NCBI RefSeq assembly: GCF_012933465.1
Contig: NZ_JABBND010000013.1
Span: 1 to 64,000, forward strand
Reading direction: 5' to 3'
DNA: 64,000 bases
Origin: Actinomycetospora sp. TBRC 11914
Lineage (GTDB): Bacteria > Actinomycetota > Actinomycetes > Mycobacteriales > Pseudonocardiaceae
The position numbers and the translations under genes were made by a program. Shown in pieces: positions 7,715 to 63,451 of this stretch (within the stretch, counting starts at the first letter, position 1; each line of letters opens with the position of its first letter). The notes under the pieces are model-generated. The model was not told the DNA's origin. It was given only the letters and a program-made list of their open reading frames with translations, and searched no databases.

Positions 7715-7752
7715 GCGTGAGGGGGACCCGCGCCCGCGGGTCCCCCTCACGC
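7715..7752. terminator. Strong hairpin terminator after the GH6 gene
   Basis: A perfect 17-bp stem with arms at 7715-7731 and 7736-7752 and a 4-base loop starts just after the GH6 stop at 7713. It is the strongest simple hairpin I found and stands between two converging genes, so it can serve both directions. There is no T tract, as is usual in actinomycetes. Confidence 0.85.
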
Positions 7753-21783: not shown

Positions 21784-21833
21784 GCCGAGTGGACCCCGGT
21801 GGCTGGCCCGGCAGCCCTGACGGTCCACTCGGC
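21784..21833. repeat. 50-bp palindrome-ended dispersed repeat, solitary copy
   Basis: GCCGAGTGGAC at 21784-21794 and GTCCACTCGGC at 21823-21833 form perfect 11-base inverted ends, and GGCAGCCCTGACGGTCC in the right half matches the four-copy cluster at 31.3-31.5 kb. It sits between two converging genes and could act as a terminator. Confidence 0.85.
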
Positions 21834-26600: not shown

Positions 26601-27862
26601 TCCGGGTGGAGGCGGCGCGGGAGACGCTGGCCGAGCGCGAGGCGGCGGCGACGGCGGGCCGCGCGCGGCTCGTCGAGGCGGTGGAGGTTCCCGGGCTGCT
26701 CGCCGCGGCCGAACGGCCCACCACCGTGTCGACCGCAGCCGGGACGAACGACTCGTTCGTGCAGGTAGACGCCACGAACGAGTCGTTCGTCCCGGAAGGC
26801 GGGGAGGACGACGCCGGCTCACCGGAGCCGATCCCGGCGACCCCGGCGACCGTCGACGGCGCGCGGGAACTGGTCGAGGCCCTGCGCGCCCGGATCGCCG
26901 CCCCGCGGGTGCAGGTCAGCGAGGACGCGCTGGAGAAGGCGCTGCGCGCCACGCGCGACCAGCTGGCCTCGGGCTGGGACATCGAGTCGCGCCGCGGGGC
27001 CGACGGCGCCCCGCTGGCCGTGCACGTCACCGGGCCGAGCCGTGCGGTGCTGGCCCAGATGGTGCACCGGATCGCCGTTCAGCGGCGACGCGCGACCAGC
27101 CTGCTCTCGGCCCACCAGGACCAGGCGCTGCGCAACCTGCTCCACGGGCGCATCGCCCGCGAGGTCGCCGACGCGCTGTTCGCCGCCCGCGAGCTGGTGA
27201 CGCGCATCAACGGCATCCTGCGCGGGGTCACCTCGAGCCAGGGGATCGGCGTGCGGCTCGACTGGCGGCCGCGCTCCGACCTCGACCCGGAGACCGCGAC
27301 CGCGCTGGAGCTGCTCGGCAAGCACCCCGACCTGCGCACCCCCGACGAGGACGACCGCGTCCGCGAGGCGGTGAAGGGCCTCGTCGAGCAGGCCCGCGGC
27401 CAGGACCCGGAGGCGTCCTACCGCACCGTCATCGGCGACGTCCTCGACTACCGCACGTGGCACGAGATGCGGATCTACCTGCGGCGGCCGGGCCGCAACG
27501 ACGAGCTGCTGACGCGGCGCACCACGCTCTCCGAGGGCGAGAAGAAGCTGGTCACGGTGCTGCCGATGGCCTCGGCGGCGGCGGCCAGCGCCGCGGCCCA
27601 CGACCCGCACGCCGTCGGCGCGCCCCGGCTCGTGCTGCTCGACGACGCCTTCGCCAAGGTCTCCGAGGACAACCACGCGAAGCTCTTCGGCCTCCTCGTG
27701 GACCTCGACGTGGACTTCGTCGTCACCTCCGAGCGGCTGTGGGGCACGCACGCCAACGTGCCGGCGCTCGCGATCACCGAGGTGCTGCGCGACCCGGAGC
27801 TGCGCGCGATCGCGCTCGTGCACTACCGCTGGAACGGCCACGAGCTCGCGGTGGCCGCGTGA
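23654..27862 (+). CDS. jetC: SMC-like ATPase, JetC/MukB type (TIGR02680), 1402 aa
   Basis: Large SMC-family ATPase of the MukB/MksB/JetC branch. The Walker A motif GVNGSGKST lies at about residues 38-47, the ABC signature LSEGEKK at about 1291 and Walker B LVLLDDAF at about 1325, separated by long Ala/Arg/Glu-rich coiled-coil segments. These proteins dimerise, bind DNA and extrude loops; in Wadjet they recognise plasmids by topology. The start is GTG 23654, with GGGGGAGG about 17 bases upstream. The stop overlaps the next gene's GTG by 4 bases. Odd feature: a 53-base perfect inverted repeat (26741-26793) sits in frame at about residues 1030-1047, just before the C-terminal head, and encodes TNDSFV and TNESFV. 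This stretch looks like a tolerated insertion. Confidence 0.88.
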   Translation: MAQTERNRRWRPSRAGILNVYQYQDEVLDFADGRLLLRGVNGSGKSTAMNMLLPFLLEADVRKIDAAGEQRGVLRSWMLSDNDDTQRTGYLWIEFVRDAADGGVEHRTVGCGIRANRSTDRVTTWWFSTDRRAKIDFRLTEADVPFSAEVLRGELGGRGAVFTSTAEYRAEIARRFFGGTDPQAYFRLLHQVRNPRVGDRIDTDLPRTLREALPPVPEDAVSDAAQPLEDLEDHRRNVTDLARTAQALDGVVEVYADYARRVLMTAVEGAASAVDAARTASTRLERDRAAAGRAVAAREAATRGVGELTDEHARATAERQGLVSLPEYSAHADLVRRRDELTRADETTATLDAVRERARRRTTTAADAVAAARGQLESDLAGITEHLAGVATAARTASAGPALARLPDPPALVTEPRHDEAGGTTVEVPEDASDPAEDLATALVGIGDGLRAHRTTLRDLRERAVAADRETAAADRADTEAAEARERAEEAAEQADVARRAARAAADEHAGAVGAWRGRLAAHLAAVPAAEPGGPVGWLTPDDPAEVPDDADPGDDLRARADALVAAARRRADDASGALAAAHGRATSAVEQVGGEVEELRAERARVEAAGELPLPREPWRTDADTADGALFASVVDFAEDLDDAGRAGLEAALEASGLLAARVGADGALRGAGGELLVAADPAAPGAGAGGLARWLTPVDTGAVPVEVVAGVLAAVGDHPEAGALWVRDDGSFGAGPLRGRHTKPAAEHVGTGARAQARARRLAELAARVAAAQDRLVAAREVSAALDAHAEALRVLVRELPPTRAVDDAVSTATGAVRYAEQAQGRSAERSAAATEARRRADEAVARLQQEASDAGLPTDPARLEELLEATADAERALAAVQSAAERARRSARAWREAIAGWEREVAELGPAVADHRAAAGHAAAVRTELETAEAALGEEPAKVAARVGELDEHLREVAGRLDAAREEQTGATVAVREAELRVEAARETLAEREAAATAGRARLVEAVEVPGLLAAAERPTTVSTAAGTNDSFVQVDATNESFVPEGGEDDAGSPEPIPATPATVDGARELVEALRARIAAPRVQVSEDALEKALRATRDQLASGWDIESRRGADGAPLAVHVTGPSRAVLAQMVHRIAVQRRRATSLLSAHQDQALRNLLHGRIAREVADALFAARELVTRINGILRGVTSSQGIGVRLDWRPRSDLDPETATALELLGKHPDLRTPDEDDRVREAVKGLVEQARGQDPEASYRTVIGDVLDYRTWHEMRIYLRRPGRNDELLTRRTTLSEGEKKLVTVLPMASAAAASAAAHDPHAVGAPRLVLLDDAFAKVSEDNHAKLFGLLVDLDVDFVVTSERLWGTHANVPALAITEVLRDPELRAIALVHYRWNGHELAVAA
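26741..26793. repeat. 53-base perfect inverted repeat inside the SMC gene
   Basis: Two 21-base arms at 26741-26761 and 26773-26793 are exact reverse complements around an 11-base spacer. Each arm is itself built on the odd-centred palindrome ACGAACGA(C/G)TCGTTCGT. The base composition is clearly less GC-rich than the gene around it, and the local protein sequence (Ser/Thr/Asn/Asp) interrupts the Ala/Arg/Glu-rich helix region. It looks like a palindromic element accepted within a coding sequence. Confidence 0.9.
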
Positions 27863-31308: not shown

Positions 31309-31541
31309 GCCGAGTGGGCGCGCATGGCTGCTCGGCCAACCCTGGAGGTCCACTCGACGGGTGCGGCGCCGAGTGGGCTCCCACGGCTCCCGCGGCAGCC
31401 CTGACGGTCCACTCGGCGGGGCTACCAGTGCCGAGTGGGCTCCCACGGCTCCCGCGGCAGCCCTGACGGTCCACTCGGCGGGGCTACCAGTGCCGAGTGG
31501 GCTCCCACGGCTCCCGCGGCAGCCCTGACGGTCCACTCGGC
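31309..31541. repeat. Cluster of four 50-bp palindrome-ended repeats
   Basis: Copies lie at 31309-31358, 31368-31417, 31430-31479 and 31492-31541. Each runs from GCCGAGTGG to GTCCACTCG(G/A)C. The last three are essentially identical, including the 12-base linker, and form a 62-base tandem period; the first is diverged inside but keeps its ends. The cluster fills most of the divergent gap between the EI24 and BtuF-like genes (31243-31578). It is not a CRISPR array, because the linkers are identical. Confidence 0.92.
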
Positions 31542-38839: not shown

Positions 38840-38956
38840 GCCGGGAAGGTACCCACACCCCGCCGTGCGCCGCGCGCGCCGACCAGGTCCCGGACGCGGT
38901 GATCGTCTCGATCCGCCGATGCCAGGGCGGCCCGTCCGACGTCGGGGGTGCTTCGG

Positions 38957-38972
38957 TGCCCCCTTGGGGGCA
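38957..38972. promoter_or_regulatory. Inverted repeat upstream of the second P450
   Basis: TGCCCCC(tt)GGGGGCA is a perfect 7-base inverted repeat in the 203-base gap between the divergent EcsC and P450 genes, about 70 bases before the P450 start. It is a candidate operator. It does not resemble the KstR site that controls sterol P450s in mycobacteria. Confidence 0.4.
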
Positions 38973-39042
38973 GCCCGGGTTTGTCGGCGCGGTGAGCCGG
39001 TGCACAGGAGGGGCACGCCGACGACCCCCAGAGGAGACGCCG

Positions 39043-40323
39043 ATGTCCGTGCAGACCAGCCCCGCCTCCGGACGCGAGTACTCCGCCATCGACATCTCGG
39101 GACAGGAGTTCTGGGACGCGACGGCCGAGGAGCGCGAGGAGACCTTCGCCCGGCTCCGTCGCGAGGATCCGGTGTCCTGGCAGCGCCCCGTCGAGAACGC
39201 CGTGGCTCCGGACCCGGAGGACCCGGGCTACTGGGCGGTCGTGCGGCACGAGGACATCGCGACGGTCAGCACCGGCAACGACGTCTTCGTCTCCGGGCAG
39301 GGCGTGCTGTTCGACCAGCTGCCGCCGGAGTTCCTCGAGATGACGCAGTCGTTCCTGGCGATGGACAACCCGCGCCACAACGGCCTGCGCAAGCTCGTCC
39401 AGAAGGCGTTCACCCCGAAGCGGATCCAGCGGATCTCCGAGCAGGTGGAGCAGGCCGCGCAGGAGGTCGTCGACTCCTTCGCCGGCGAGCCCTCGGGCGA
39501 GATCGAGTTCGTCGAGCGGTGCGCGGGCCGGCTGCCGCTGCGGATGTTCTCCGCGATGTTCGGGGTGCCCGAGCACCTCCAGGAGGAGACGGCGGCCGCG
39601 GCCCAGGAGATCGTGTCGTGGGCCGACCCGGAGCACCTCGCGGGCCGGGACCCGTCGCAGGTCCAGCTCGAGGCGGCGCAGAAGCTGCACCGGATCGCCG
39701 CCGAGATCGTGGCCGAGCGCCGGCAGGACCCGGGCGAGGACCTGTTCACCGGCCTCATCGAGGCGGAGGTCGACGGCCAGCACCTGACCGACTCCGAGAT
39801 CGGCGCCTTCTTCGTGCTGCTCGCGGTGGCGGGCAACGACACGACGAAGCACACCTCGACGCTGACGATCAAGCACTTCACCGAGAACCCCGACCAGCGG
39901 GACTGGCTCGCGGCCGACCTCGACGAGCGGATCGGCACGGCCGTCGAGGAGTTCGTCCGCTACGCCAGCCCGGTCATGACGTTCCGGCGGACCGCGGTGA
40001 CCGACACCGAGCTGGGCGGGCGCGCGATCCGCGAGGGCGACAAGGTCGTGATGTTCTACTCCTCGGGCAACCGCGACGCCGACGTCTTCGACGACCCGGG
40101 CGCGTTCGACCTCGCCCGCAGCCCGAACCCCCACGTCGGGTTCGGCGGCGGCGGCACCCACTACTGCCTGGGCAACCAGCTGGCCAAGACGATGCTGCGG
40201 GCGCTCTTCCGCCAGATCCTCACCCGCGTGCCCGACATCCACGTCACCGCCGAGCCCGAGCTCCTCGGCACCAACTTCATCCGCGGGGTGAAGCGGCAGC
40301 AGGTGGCGTTCACGCCGGAATAG
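39043..40323 (+). CDS. Cytochrome P450, CYP124/125-like, 426 aa
   Basis: Soluble P450 with the I-helix AGNDTTKH, ExxR in EEFVRYASP and the haem loop FGGGGTHYCLG. The motif AGNDTT with the preceding FFVLLAVAG and the HYCLGNQLAK end are typical of the CYP124/125/142 group that hydroxylates the terminal carbon of sterol side chains or methyl-branched lipids; this substrate guess is inference. No sterol-degradation genes are in the window. ATG 39043 has GAGGAGA 5 bases upstream. Its TAG stop (40321-40323) is the first triplet of a 72-bp palindromic repeat that links it to the DUF427 gene. Confidence 0.9.
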   Translation: MSVQTSPASGREYSAIDISGQEFWDATAEEREETFARLRREDPVSWQRPVENAVAPDPEDPGYWAVVRHEDIATVSTGNDVFVSGQGVLFDQLPPEFLEMTQSFLAMDNPRHNGLRKLVQKAFTPKRIQRISEQVEQAAQEVVDSFAGEPSGEIEFVERCAGRLPLRMFSAMFGVPEHLQEETAAAAQEIVSWADPEHLAGRDPSQVQLEAAQKLHRIAAEIVAERRQDPGEDLFTGLIEAEVDGQHLTDSEIGAFFVLLAVAGNDTTKHTSTLTIKHFTENPDQRDWLAADLDERIGTAVEEFVRYASPVMTFRRTAVTDTELGGRAIREGDKVVMFYSSGNRDADVFDDPGAFDLARSPNPHVGFGGGGTHYCLGNQLAKTMLRALFRQILTRVPDIHVTAEPELLGTNFIRGVKRQQVAFTPE

Positions 40324-40394
40324 GTGCGCTTCGCGCTCGTGAGCAGAAACTGTCGCTATGACGACACTTTCTGCTCACAGGGCCGAAGGCCACC
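40323..40394. repeat. 72-bp palindromic dispersed element, copy 1
   Basis: The core at 40339-40378 has 17-base arms (GTGAGCAGAAACTGTCG and its partner) with one mismatch around CTATGA. It is flanked by mini-hairpins GCGC(TTC)GCGC at 40326-40336 and GGCC(GAA)GGCC at 40381-40391, inside GGTG...CACC ends. It begins with the last base of the P450 stop codon and contains the ATG of the DUF427 gene. Confidence 0.9.
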
Positions 40395-41044
40395 TCAAGC
40401 GGGTCCGGGCGGTGCTCGGGGGACGGGTCGTCGTCGACACCCTCGCGCCCGTGCTCGTGTGGGAGTGGCCGTACTACCCGACCTACCACCTGCCCGTCGC
40501 CGACGTGGACCTCGACGCGCTCCCGACGACGGCCGTGCGGCGGCTCGTGCTGGACGTGGACGGACGGCCCACCGACCTCGTGCGCGTCGAGTGGTCCGCG
40601 ATGGACCAGTGGTTCGAGGAGGACGAGCCGGTCGAGGTCCACCCGCGGGACCCGTACGTCCGCATCGACGCGCTCGCGAGCTCGCGGCACGTCGAGGTGG
40701 CCGTCGACGGCGTGGTGCTCGCCGACTCCACCCGCCCGACGGTGCTCTTCGAGACCCGCCTGCCGCCCCGGTTCTACCTCCCCCTGCCCGACCTGCGGCT
40801 CGACCTGCTCCGCCCGTCCGACACCGTGACCCGCTGCCCGTACAAGGGCACCGCCACCTACTGGTCGGTCGAGCTCCCCGACGGCACCTGGCACCCGGAC
40901 CTGTTCTGGACGTACCGCGCCCCCGTGGCGGAGAGCCAGAAGGTCGCCGGGCTGGCCGCGGTGTGGACCGAGAAGGTCGACCTGCGCCTCGACGGCGTGC
41001 CCCAGGACCGGGCCCGCACCCACTTCGAGGTGCCGGGGACCTGA
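40358..41044 (+). CDS. DUF427 family protein with two tandem domains, 228 aa
   Basis: Two consecutive DUF427 domains are visible: VRAVLGGRVVVDTLAPVLVWEWPYYPTYHLP (about residues 16-50) and the better conserved second VEVAVDGVVLADSTRPTVLFETRLPPRFYLPLPDLR with CPYKGTATYWSVEL (about 108-170). DUF427 domains are small beta-rich folds of unknown function, common in actinomycetes. The only in-frame ATG is at 40358, inside the centre of the palindromic element upstream, so the repeat appears to supply the first codons (TTLSAH). It lacks a good ribosome binding site; expression may depend on the P450 message. Confidence 0.85.
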   Translation: MTTLSAHRAEGHLKRVRAVLGGRVVVDTLAPVLVWEWPYYPTYHLPVADVDLDALPTTAVRRLVLDVDGRPTDLVRVEWSAMDQWFEEDEPVEVHPRDPYVRIDALASSRHVEVAVDGVVLADSTRPTVLFETRLPPRFYLPLPDLRLDLLRPSDTVTRCPYKGTATYWSVELPDGTWHPDLFWTYRAPVAESQKVAGLAAVWTEKVDLRLDGVPQDRARTHFEVPGT

Positions 41045-55802: not shown

Positions 55803-56096
55803 ATGGACCCCTCCCAGGCCCGCAACCCGTCGGCGCTGCCGGACAGCTCGCCCGAGAAGCAGAGCGAGCTGAAGCTCAACGCCGGGATCGGCATCATCGG
55901 CACGATCCTGTCGCTGTTCGTCACGGTCGTCTTCATCGCGGTGATCGACGAGCTCGTGCTCGGCATCGTCTTCGCGGTGGTGACCATCGTGTCGGCGGCG
56001 ATCACGCTGTACGTGCTCGGGCGCAAGCGCCGGGGTGCGGCCGCGGCGGCGCGGTCCGACTCCGCGACGTCGTCCGGGACCGCCGCGGCCCACTAG
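55803..56096 (+). CDS. Small two-span membrane protein, 97 aa
   Basis: Function unknown. A hydrophilic N-terminus of about 25 residues with a Pro/Ser/Glu stretch is followed by two adjacent membrane segments (GIGIIGTILSLFVTVVFIAVI and LGIVFAVVTIVSAAITLYVLG, described by their borders at about 28-48 and 52-72) and a basic, Ala/Ser-rich cytoplasmic tail (RKRRG). Such small hairpin membrane proteins are common in actinomycetes. ATG 55803 is clear but without a strong ribosome site. Its TAG stop at 56094-56096 is the first triplet of the second 72-bp palindromic element. Confidence 0.7.
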   Translation: MDPSQARNPSALPDSSPEKQSELKLNAGIGIIGTILSLFVTVVFIAVIDELVLGIVFAVVTIVSAAITLYVLGRKRRGAAAAARSDSATSSGTAAAH

Positions 56097-56166
56097 GTGG
56101 CCTGCGGCCTCGTGAGCACAAAATGTCGGTATAGCGACACTTAGTGCTCACGGGGCGTCAGCCACC
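56096..56166. repeat. 72-bp-type palindromic dispersed element, copy 2
   Basis: Core 56112-56151: arms GTGAGCACAAAATGTCG and its partner pair at 15 of 17 positions around GTATAG. Flanking hairpins are GGCC(TGC)GGCC at 56099-56109 and GGC(GTCA)GCC at 56154-56163, within GGTG...CACC ends. It begins at the last base of the upstream stop and covers the stop of the converging pentapeptide gene. Confidence 0.88.
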
Positions 56167-61932: not shown

Positions 61933-62739
61933 GTGAACGGAGAGGCCGGGTCGCCACCGCCCGGGGTGGCGGACGCCCTGGCGCGCCTCCGGGAGCTGCT
62001 CGCCGACGGTGATCCACCCCTCGACGAAGCGGCGCTGCAGATCGCCCGGCTCGCGGACCCCGACGCCGACGTCGACGCCGCGCTCGCCGAGCTGGACCGG
62101 CTGGCCGAGGGCGTCACCGACCTCGACGGCCTCGTCGTGCGCCTCTACACCGAGGAGGGCTTCGCCGGGAACCGCGAGGAGTACTACGACCCCCGCAACT
62201 CCTCGCTCGTCGAGGTCCTCGCCCGGCGCCGCGGCATCCCGATCACCCTCGCCGTCGTCGTCCTCGAGGTGGGGCGCCGCGCCGGGCTCGCCCTGGAGCC
62301 CGTCGGCATGCCGGGACACTTCCTGGTCCACCCCCGCGACTCGGGGTGGTACCTGGACCCGTTCACCGGCGACCTGCTCGGGCTCGACGAGTGCGAGGCG
62401 CTCTTCCGGGCCTCGACCGGCGTCGGCCGCGACGTGCCGTTCCACCCGGCGCTGCTCGTGCCGGTCTCGGTGCAGTCGGTCCTCGTGCGGATGCTGACCA
62501 ACCTCCGCGTGATCCACCGCGCCGCGGGGCGCGTGCCGGAGCTGCGCTGGGTGCTCGAGGCACGGCTGCTGCTCGCGGGTGTCGGGGCGGACGAGGTCGT
62601 CGAGCTCGCGACGACGGTGGGCCGCCGGGGGGACTACCTCGCCGCGGCCCGCCTGCTCGACCACTGGACCGAGCGGCTCCCCCGCGACACCGCCCGGCTC
62701 GCCCGCCACGCGCGCGCCTGGCGGGCCTACCTCAACTAG
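61933..62739 (+). CDS. SirB1/transglutaminase-like family protein, 268 aa
   Basis: SirB1-type protein (transglut_core2 and TPR). The conserved block EEYYDPRNSSLVEVLARRRGIPITLAVVVLEVGRRAGL, GMPGHFLV and WYLDPFTG are visible, then the tetratricopeptide-like helices VLEARLLLAG and AARLLDHW. The usual Cys of active transglutaminases is not evident, as in most SirB1 proteins. Its role is unclear; the family lies near release-factor genes in other bacteria. GTG 61933 begins 38 bases after the amidase stop. Its TAG stop (62737-62739) is the first triplet of the third 72-bp element. Confidence 0.87.
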   Translation: MNGEAGSPPPGVADALARLRELLADGDPPLDEAALQIARLADPDADVDAALAELDRLAEGVTDLDGLVVRLYTEEGFAGNREEYYDPRNSSLVEVLARRRGIPITLAVVVLEVGRRAGLALEPVGMPGHFLVHPRDSGWYLDPFTGDLLGLDECEALFRASTGVGRDVPFHPALLVPVSVQSVLVRMLTNLRVIHRAAGRVPELRWVLEARLLLAGVGADEVVELATTVGRRGDYLAAARLLDHWTERLPRDTARLARHARAWRAYLN

Positions 62740-62810
62740 GTGCGCTCCGCGCTCGTGAGCACTAACTGTCGCTATACCGACACTTTCTGCTCACGAGCGC
62801 GGAGCGCACC
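62739..62810. repeat. 72-bp palindromic dispersed element, copy 3, between converging stops
   Basis: Core 62755-62794 has 17-base arms paired at 14 positions around CTATAC. Flanks are identical inverted blocks with mini-hairpins GCGC(TCC)GCGC at 62742-62752 and GCGC(GGA)GCGC at 62797-62807, so nearly the whole 76 bases 62737-62812 is palindromic. Both ends are the TAG stops of the converging genes. It should act as a bidirectional terminator. Confidence 0.92.
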
Positions 62811-63451
62811 TACTCGAGGCCCTGCTCGATCGCGTAGCGGGCGAGCTCGACGCGGTTGGTGAGCTGGAGCTTGCGGAGCACGTTCTGCACGTGGTTCTCG
62901 ACGGTGCGGTGGGACAGGCCGAGGCGCTCGGCGATGCGACGGGCGGTGAGGCCCTTCGCCACGAGTCGCAGCACCTCGGTCTCGCGCGGGGTGAGGGCGG
63001 CCCCGGCGGCGTCGGCCGGGGCCTCCCGAGCCCGGCGGCGGAACTCCCCGAGCACGAGGCCGGCGAGCTCCGGCCCGAACACCGCCTGCCCGGCGGCCGT
63101 CCGCTCCACCGCGTCGACGAGCTCCGCCACCTGCGCCGACTTCACCAGGTAGCCGGACGCGCCGGCCCGCACCGCGGCGAGCACGTCGCCCTGCTCGGCG
63201 CTCGCCGAGAGCACCAGGACGCGCGTGCCCGGGAGCGCCTCGAGGAGCGCGGCGGTGGCGCCGGCGCCGTCGAGCCGCGGCATCTGCAGGTCCATGAGCA
63301 CGACGTCGGGCCGCGCGGCCGGGGCGATCCGGACGGCGGCGGCCCCGTCGCCCGCCGTCGCCACCACCTCGAGCCCCCGCTCGCCGAGGTCCCGCGCCAC
63401 GCCCTCGCGCCACATCGGGTGGTCGTCGACCACCATGACCCGCACCGTCAC
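62810..63451 (-). CDS. NarL/LuxR-type response regulator, 213 aa
   Basis: Receiver domain with VMVVDDHPMWREGVA and the phosphoacceptor Asp in VVLMDLQMPRLDG, followed by SGYLVKSA with the conserved Lys. The C-terminal LuxR HTH is LTPRETEVLRLVAKGLTARRIAERLGLSHRTVENHVQNVLRKL (landmarks TPRE and HRTVENH). It is activated by the histidine kinase encoded directly upstream; GTG 63451 overlaps the kinase stop by 4 bases, which decides the start and shows coupling. The input signal and targets are not visible. The gene ends in the third 72-bp palindrome, which supplies its TAG stop. Confidence 0.95.
   Translation of the reverse strand: MTVRVMVVDDHPMWREGVARDLGERGLEVVATAGDGAAAVRIAPAARPDVVLMDLQMPRLDGAGATAALLEALPGTRVLVLSASAEQGDVLAAVRAGASGYLVKSAQVAELVDAVERTAAGQAVFGPELAGLVLGEFRRRAREAPADAAGAALTPRETEVLRLVAKGLTARRIAERLGLSHRTVENHVQNVLRKLQLTNRVELARYAIEQGLE

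Follow-up and report, generated by a model that had tools for sequence, protein, structure and literature searches.

What are the three palindromic units of about 72 bp that lie scattered over 64,000 nucleotides of Actinomycetospora sp. TBRC 11914 (contig NZ_JABBND010000013.1, positions 1 to 64,000; this whole stretch is referred to as the window), and what is conserved in them? They belong to a dispersed family that maintains base pairing rather than sequence through two-sided changes, and the unit sits at gene ends, often supplying their stop codon. On our best reading the closest known kind are the REPINs, inverted doublets of repetitive extragenic palindromic (REP) sequences, here without a REP-associated tyrosine transposase (RAYT). 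We consider it rather probable that the unit is a REPIN-like dispersed element which is copied within the genome and kept as gene-end punctuation. The earlier note, made from the letters of the window, had placed three copies with GGTG...CACC ends, two mini-hairpins and a palindromic core, all of which could be verified at those coordinates. The pattern GTGAGCA-N20..30-TGCTCAC occurs exactly three times in the window and in none of 100 shuffled sequences, while no match to Rfam at gathering scores was found within the window. The copies and the features around them are as follows, with the strand given where one applies.

40323..40394: copy 1, 72-bp unit (sequence and covariance-model match)
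40326..40336: copy 1, left mini-hairpin GCGC-TTC-GCGC (read in the sequence)
40339..40378: copy 1, palindromic core of 40 nt (pattern search and hairpin scan)
40381..40391: copy 1, right mini-hairpin GGCC-GAA-GGCC (read in the sequence)
40321..40323, plus strand: TAG stop of the P450-like gene 38899-40323, spanning the left edge of copy 1
40358..41044, plus strand: DUF427 gene, with the first start codon (ATG) of its open frame in the loop of copy 1
56096..56166: copy 2, 71 bp (sequence and pattern search)
56099..56109: copy 2, left mini-hairpin GGCC-TGC-GGCC (read in the sequence)
56112..56151: copy 2, core (pattern search and hairpin scan)
56154..56163: copy 2, right mini-hairpin GGC-GTCA-GCC (read in the sequence)
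56094..56096, plus strand: TAG stop at the left edge of copy 2
56158..56160, minus strand: TGA stop of a convergent pentapeptide-repeat gene, within copy 2
62739..62810: copy 3 (sequence and covariance-model match)
62742..62752: copy 3, left mini-hairpin GCGC-TCC-GCGC (read in the sequence)
62755..62794: copy 3, core (pattern search)
62797..62807: copy 3, right mini-hairpin GCGC-GGA-GCGC (read in the sequence)
62737..62739, plus strand: TAG with which the transglutaminase-like gene 61933-62739 stops, at the left edge of copy 3
62810..62812, minus strand: TAG (CTA on the plus strand) that ends a convergent response-regulator gene where it meets the right edge of copy 3

The family extends well beyond these three copies. 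The genome-wide search proposed in the earlier note returned 147 cores in the 6.52-Mb genome of the strain (G000, 63 contigs), with none for the reversed-pattern control, and a covariance model built from ten copies matched all 150 scored candidates at E <= 0.1, many of these being one copy counted on both strands. The analysis covers 102 of the 147, those for which 60 nt or more of flanking sequence was available on either side. Cores are carried by all 18 genomes of the genus (2-184 each), while 279 other genomes of the family hold 0-5, with the exception of those labelled g26 (61, 23, 11, 11 and some with 3-7); the reversed-pattern controls gave 0-3 across these genomes. A broader pattern for the 40-nt core (GTGMGYR) is found 62-269 times per genus genome (control 0-4), indicating several core versions in each genome. 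Three contig ends of G000 (C4:202028, C11:1 and C2:217095) lie at or within a unit, and these hairpins or repeats may thus break assemblies.

The unit is laid out as GGT, a 4-bp stem closed over TNC, the dinucleotide TC, a 40-nt core, GA, a second stem closed over GNA, and ACC, with the core reading GTGAGCA-N10-N6-N10-TGCTCAC and measuring exactly 40 nt in 101/102 collected cores. Mini-hairpin stems of at least 4 bp are formed on the left in 88/101 and on the right in 96/101 copies, as compared with 682/5000 random 22-mers. Read inwards, their loops are TNC or TNNC (left 83/88; right 91/96) and their closing pair is C-G (left 87/88; right 94/96), so that the opposite strand carries C-GNA-G, a motif reportedly described by Yoshizawa in 1997 as an unusually stable DNA mini-hairpin. 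The same loop rule is observed with other stems on 10/10 sides in G004 and, among sides that have a stem, on 16/19 (of 32 sides) in G562 and 23/25 (of 48 sides) in copies from other Actinomycetospora.

The alternation of GCGC and GGCC with pairing retained is real, with the local pairs 5-13 and 6-12 being Watson-Crick in 87 and 89 of the 101 own copies (45 and 49 expected if independent). The outer pairs at positions 5, 6, 12 and 13 fall below expectation (37 vs 43.9, 42 vs 49.5, 33 vs 48.3 and 41 vs 50.2, respectively). Most of the variable pairs in the core interior are complementary above expectation (e.g. 75 vs 56.5, 74 vs 46.5 and 57 vs 36.5 in 101 own copies), the exceptions being 13-28 (86 vs 84.3) and the loop-side pair 18-23 (32 vs 44.8), and in Actinomycetospora endophytica no covariation is seen at pair 16-25 (16/42 vs 20.1) or the central pairs. 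Across sixteen diverse copies, two-sided changes affect 20/30 pairs, and the covariation score of 0.51 compares with 0.176 for shuffled alignments and at most 0.154 with slid partners, so the covariation check advised at the outset came out strongly. In the own genome the left and right stem types also differ beyond chance (19/68 the same, 27.9 when shuffled, P 0.012; Fisher 0.03 for GCGC and GGCC only), and the long hairpin is thereby handicapped.

Such paired variation bears on the idea that the unit is a recognition signal, resembling the DNA uptake sequences (DUS) or a nucleoid-protein or gyrase site, with its dialects kept by a binding protein. Dialects of DUS are said to exist among species, and bacterial interspersed mosaic elements (BIMEs) bind gyrase. 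In Neisseria, inverted DUS pairs act as terminators according to PMC2397512, and both these and the 72-bp units are dispersed hairpins. The latter are longer, however, and carry no implication of uptake; in the own-genome stretches examined, which are biased to element sites, 158 half motifs lie in palindromes and two in degenerate palindromes, with no DUS-like single motif. Unlike a fixed binding site, moreover, the arms vary within one genome at paired positions, and a recognition signal is thus the least probable of the explanations considered here.

On the basis of gene orientations taken from a codon-usage score rather than annotation, 67 of the 102 copies lie between convergent genes, 34 between co-directional genes and one between divergent genes. 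Gene ends that read into a copy stop at the unit edge or inside it in 160/168 cases in the own genome, where the assignment of nine of the 168 may be wrong, the scored segment containing an in-frame stop, and in 68/69 cases in A. endophytica. The stop is most commonly a TAG formed from a TA and the first G of the unit (96/168), with other genes using the TGA of GTGAGCA or a TAA or TAG in the core; the background among 99 gene-like open reading frames, units included, is 69 TGA, 25 TAG and five TAA. Stops occur in all six frames in 35/101 own units (2.6 when shuffled) and in 27/42 units of A. endophytica (1.3), and for the core this excess survives a palindrome-preserving null in both species (25/101 vs 7.1 and 25/42 vs 4.8, respectively). 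The DUF427 frame, which in copy 1 has its ATG in the core loop, has in A. endophytica an in-frame ATG elsewhere in the unit. As in an intrinsic terminator, a stable hairpin is present at gene 3' ends. The mycobacterial interspersed repetitive units (MIRUs) likewise overlap the stop and start codons of flanking genes; their sequence is different and we know of no such hairpin design among them. The earlier note had overlooked the gene-end position, the stop codons, the species-specific arms and the named kin of the element, the REPINs.

The TA at the unit edge could also be taken for a target duplication, in which case the family would consist of miniature inverted-repeat transposable elements derived from a conventional (DDE) transposon whose terminal repeats are AGGTG/CACCT. 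The edges do read TAGGTG...CACCTA, with TA on both sides of 28/96 copies and on one side of 52. Nevertheless, the TA is found largely where an in-frame TAG stop arises and the conserved terminal repeat amounts to only ~5 bp plus the local hairpins, which leaves this origin improbable.

How the units change at fixed sites was followed in 840 kb of the closest relative, A. endophytica, where some flank match was obtained for 24/105 own copies and both flanks of twelve are adjacent. Ten of these twelve orthologous sites hold a GTGAGCA-type unit (one starting with ATGAGCA) and one (L112) holds a different hairpin. At the site of window copy 3 (62.74 kb) A. endophytica is without any hairpin and keeps just GGTGTCCGCG, which could be a scar from the left mini-hairpin. 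In the interior, orthologs share an identity of 0.477, as compared with 0.485 for non-orthologs of the two species and 0.711 and 0.623 within species; in 10/10 pairs the paralogs of the own copy are on average closer to it than its ortholog is, and permutation for an ortholog signal gives P values of 0.63 (interior), 0.052 (right 16 nt) and 0.39 (left 16 nt). The arms at the ten compared sites carry no ortholog signal. That A. endophytica has differently spelled, still self-pairing versions at most of the sites compared suggests that some machinery keeps re-copying the element.

In the reverse direction, 13/42 A. endophytica units could be placed, the own genome having nine and being without four, counts which are biased by the choice of own stretches around units; within the window alone, two are present and three absent. 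Three of the four unit-less own sites hold another dispersed inverted-repeat family, GCCGAGTGGAC...CCACTCGGC. Members of the inverted-repeat family GCCGAGTGGACCGTCAGGG...CCCACTCGGC were observed in the window at 31310-31540 (several adjacent copies at ~31.3-31.5 kb) and 21815-21832, as well as at L086 1365 and L112 2189, and these lie at gene ends which in A. endophytica are occupied by the 72-bp unit. At L174 of A. endophytica (E_L165, joined position 193061), TGTAGGTGCGCTCCGCACCTACA lies between two convergent TAG stops and is apparently a remnant comprising the unit edges without the core. The gene end at 62.7 kb was further compared in ten other Actinomycetospora genomes, A. endophytica not counted, where hairpins of the GTGAGCA, GTGAGCG, GTGAGTG and GTGCGTG versions occur, nine intact and strong and one degenerate. 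Such gene ends thus look like long-lived slots in which the sequence turns over with the species.

Two further explanations can be weighed against these comparisons. The hairpin retained at 62.7 kb, the gene-end position and the replacement by another inverted-repeat family at three of the four unit-less sites would all fit a functional class of two-way terminators without mobility, the arms of which drift by fast compensatory substitution; compensatory evolution of terminators is described for Bacillus cereus in PMC5381666. We regard such a class as unlikely, given that independent drift cannot provide dispersed copies with shared species-specific arms (0.71/0.62 vs 0.477) and that the full design recurs in other genomes. 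Alternatively, old copies may not be overwritten at all, and each species may have received independent, site-specific insertions at the same gene ends. This would require the same exact sites to be hit in both lineages at 10/12 sites, and some hairpin is present at the 62.7-kb site in nearly all genomes compared, so that it appears less likely still, even though orthologous sites share identical or almost identical edges and gains and losses do exist.

The REPIN-like reading draws on a close likeness of anatomy. The earlier note had proposed a resemblance to REP/BIME units, which is borne out by the dispersed family, and had found no named family with this design, whereas REPINs have nearly this design. 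In PMC3116915, REPINs are described as inverted REP doublets associated with RAYTs, and 101 aligned copies of the GI type from Pseudomonas fluorescens SBW25 are considered in both hairpin and 'clover' folds; like the 72-bp unit, they have two inverted small hairpin ends and a spacer constrained in length and pairing, with compensatory changes. The present family is likewise a high-copy, dispersed extragenic palindrome (147 cores, 102 examined at gene ends) with two short inverted hairpins around a pairing spacer. It differs from REPINs in lying directly on stop codons, in its 40-nt core with GTGAGCA ends and in its species-specific arms. The foot sequence also departs from the GT[AG]G given for REPs in PMC6006769, as the unit reads (A)GGT before the stem and GTGG arises only from overlap with stems beginning with GG. 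As compared to enterobacterial REP/BIME sequences, the sequence and fold are different and the element is a three-part unit. Evolution of REP/BIME sequences through gene conversion was reportedly proposed by Higgins in 1988.

The mechanism we envisage would start from two inverted hairpin ends, each with an AGGTG foot, a short stem and a C-G pair closing a TNC loop (GNA on the other strand), which flank the 40-nt palindromic spacer. The unit would be copied through a single-stranded hairpin form recognised by a trans-acting enzyme other than a PF01797 RAYT, with cores at old sites being overwritten by the current version of the species. The survival of units at gene ends may then be explained by two roles that they would have there, namely termination of transcription in both directions and provision of stop codons in several frames of either strand. 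Both the termination activity and the copying enzyme are inferred. More tentatively, and as a possibility we would not rate above doubtful, Actinobacteria may harbour a REPIN-like element that is spread by a non-Y1 copying system and has had the arms of more than 100 copies rewritten in place; each species would thereby have acquired a dialect of its own at old sites at gene ends, in which the element serves the neighbouring genes as both stop codon and terminator.

Several observations weigh against a copied REPIN-like element kept as gene-end punctuation. The first concerns the mobiliser: PF01797 was detected in 0/18 genus genomes, with 5/14 controls positive, and gave nothing at E <= 1 in G000, G219, G004 and G708, in a search that covers this family alone among transposases and recombinases. 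The family thereby also differs from REPINs, which go with a RAYT, and the linked RAYT that the earlier note had advised looking for was not found. Among other carriers there was none in G562 and G208 and one in G262; the RAYT hypothesis was rejected on the basis of these negatives in the genus and in all other carriers except G262. The G262 match (L240, G262:C122:49441-49803) is to Y1_Tnp in an open frame of 405 amino acids, in a g26 genome with 58-61 GTGAGCA cores, and the g26 cores sampled are without mini-hairpins. Indeed, mini-hairpins are nearly absent around related 40-nt cores (1/18 sides in g16; 1/20 in g26), and a stem of at least 4 bp is found on just 25/48 sides of sampled cores from other Actinomycetospora. 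Similarly, the anti-association of left and right stems is absent in A. endophytica (12/13 the same, 12.0 expected).

The predicted folds are a further difficulty. In no case does the three-hairpin fold come within 0.5 kcal/mol of the predicted minimum (0/65 own and 0/16 A. endophytica strict copies); it lies on average 6.9 kcal/mol above that minimum as DNA in the own genome, and 12.3 kcal/mol above it as RNA (8.0 for copies with different stems); for the 47 different-stem copies the DNA value is just 3.8 kcal/mol. The energies thus did not bear out a three-hairpin ground state. The minimum folds of the three window copies are long hairpins, including copy 1, for which a long outer stem had been held impossible and in which a register-shifted long stem is the predicted minimum (DNA -23.9 and RNA -44.4 kcal/mol). 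Thus the conservation of local hairpins is upheld, since local pairs covary and outer pairs do not, whereas the ground state is not predicted to be the cross-shaped, three-hairpin form; selection may act on a transient state or on one bound by a protein. Direct inspection of the three window copies also revealed no T-run after the hairpin, and the unit is therefore not a canonical intrinsic terminator. With bidirectional intrinsic terminators it shares a strong hairpin between convergent genes, and it differs from them in this respect and in forming a dispersed family with flanking mini-hairpins. Six-frame stops were counted in 0/16 cores of G562, 0/5 of G004 and 0/10 of g26 (null means 1.2, 0.1 and 0.0, respectively) and in 2/26 cores of other Actinomycetospora (null mean 1.1), so that stops in multiple frames characterise certain versions of the unit. 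Finally, the comparison with empty sites that had been advised supports species-specific occupancy, but the placed ortholog sites include no clean pre-insertion site with a target duplication.

If REPINs depend on RAYTs, as has been proposed, a near-identical anatomy for which no Y1 was found allows direct tests of what copies such elements, particularly in a group where, according to PMC6006769, the sampled Actinobacteridae carry only subclass 1.1 tnpA-Y1. The arms, without ortholog signal at ten sites, are a clear example of concerted evolution among dispersed copies in a bacterium for which related species can be compared, and the gene ends are punctuated by a shared repeat supplying stop codons to genes on both sides.

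A small number of other genomes in the order also carry the design. A class-wide scan at the fixed length of 40 nt matched 29/394 genomes, with, among the matches listed, only one to two per genome, apparently non-palindromic, outside G000 and G562. A second model, built from the sixteen diverse copies, matched 8/249 genomes of the order at E <= 1e-4, counts which are lower bounds since scoring was limited to 19 candidates per genome and used stricter filters. These are G000, G004 (g5, of the same family), G562 (of another family), G708, where a single copy in a 320-contig assembly may be contamination, and four g16 genomes, in which the matches are weak and consist of 40-nt cores without mini-hairpins. 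A BLAST search of G562 with one of its own units yields 55 matches, counting both strands. The patchy spread over the order suggests transfer or repeated loss. Plasmid and phage collections held no similar element at E <= 0.01, and no paper on the 72-bp family was found in the literature on repeats of Actinomycetospora, REPINs and RAYTs in actinobacteria, gene-end repeats, terminators between convergent genes, and gene conversion and concerted evolution of REP sequences, the broader topics being covered through their best-ranked matches. Hairpins such as GTGAGTGGTAAGGACGG...CCGTCCTTACCACTCAC in g16 (L244-L247, L250-L253 and L256) again show a 40-nt core and no mini-hairpins.

Other hairpins were also noted between genes of the two species. 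A second dispersed hairpin family, ACGAACGACTCGTTCGT...ACGAACGAGTCGTTCGT, is present in the window at 26739-26795 and recurs between convergent genes in A. endophytica (tiles L198 and L204), where L173 contains a related hairpin. A perfect hairpin with 18-nt arms, GCGTGAGGGGGACCCGCG, lies between convergent genes at 7715-7752 of the window.
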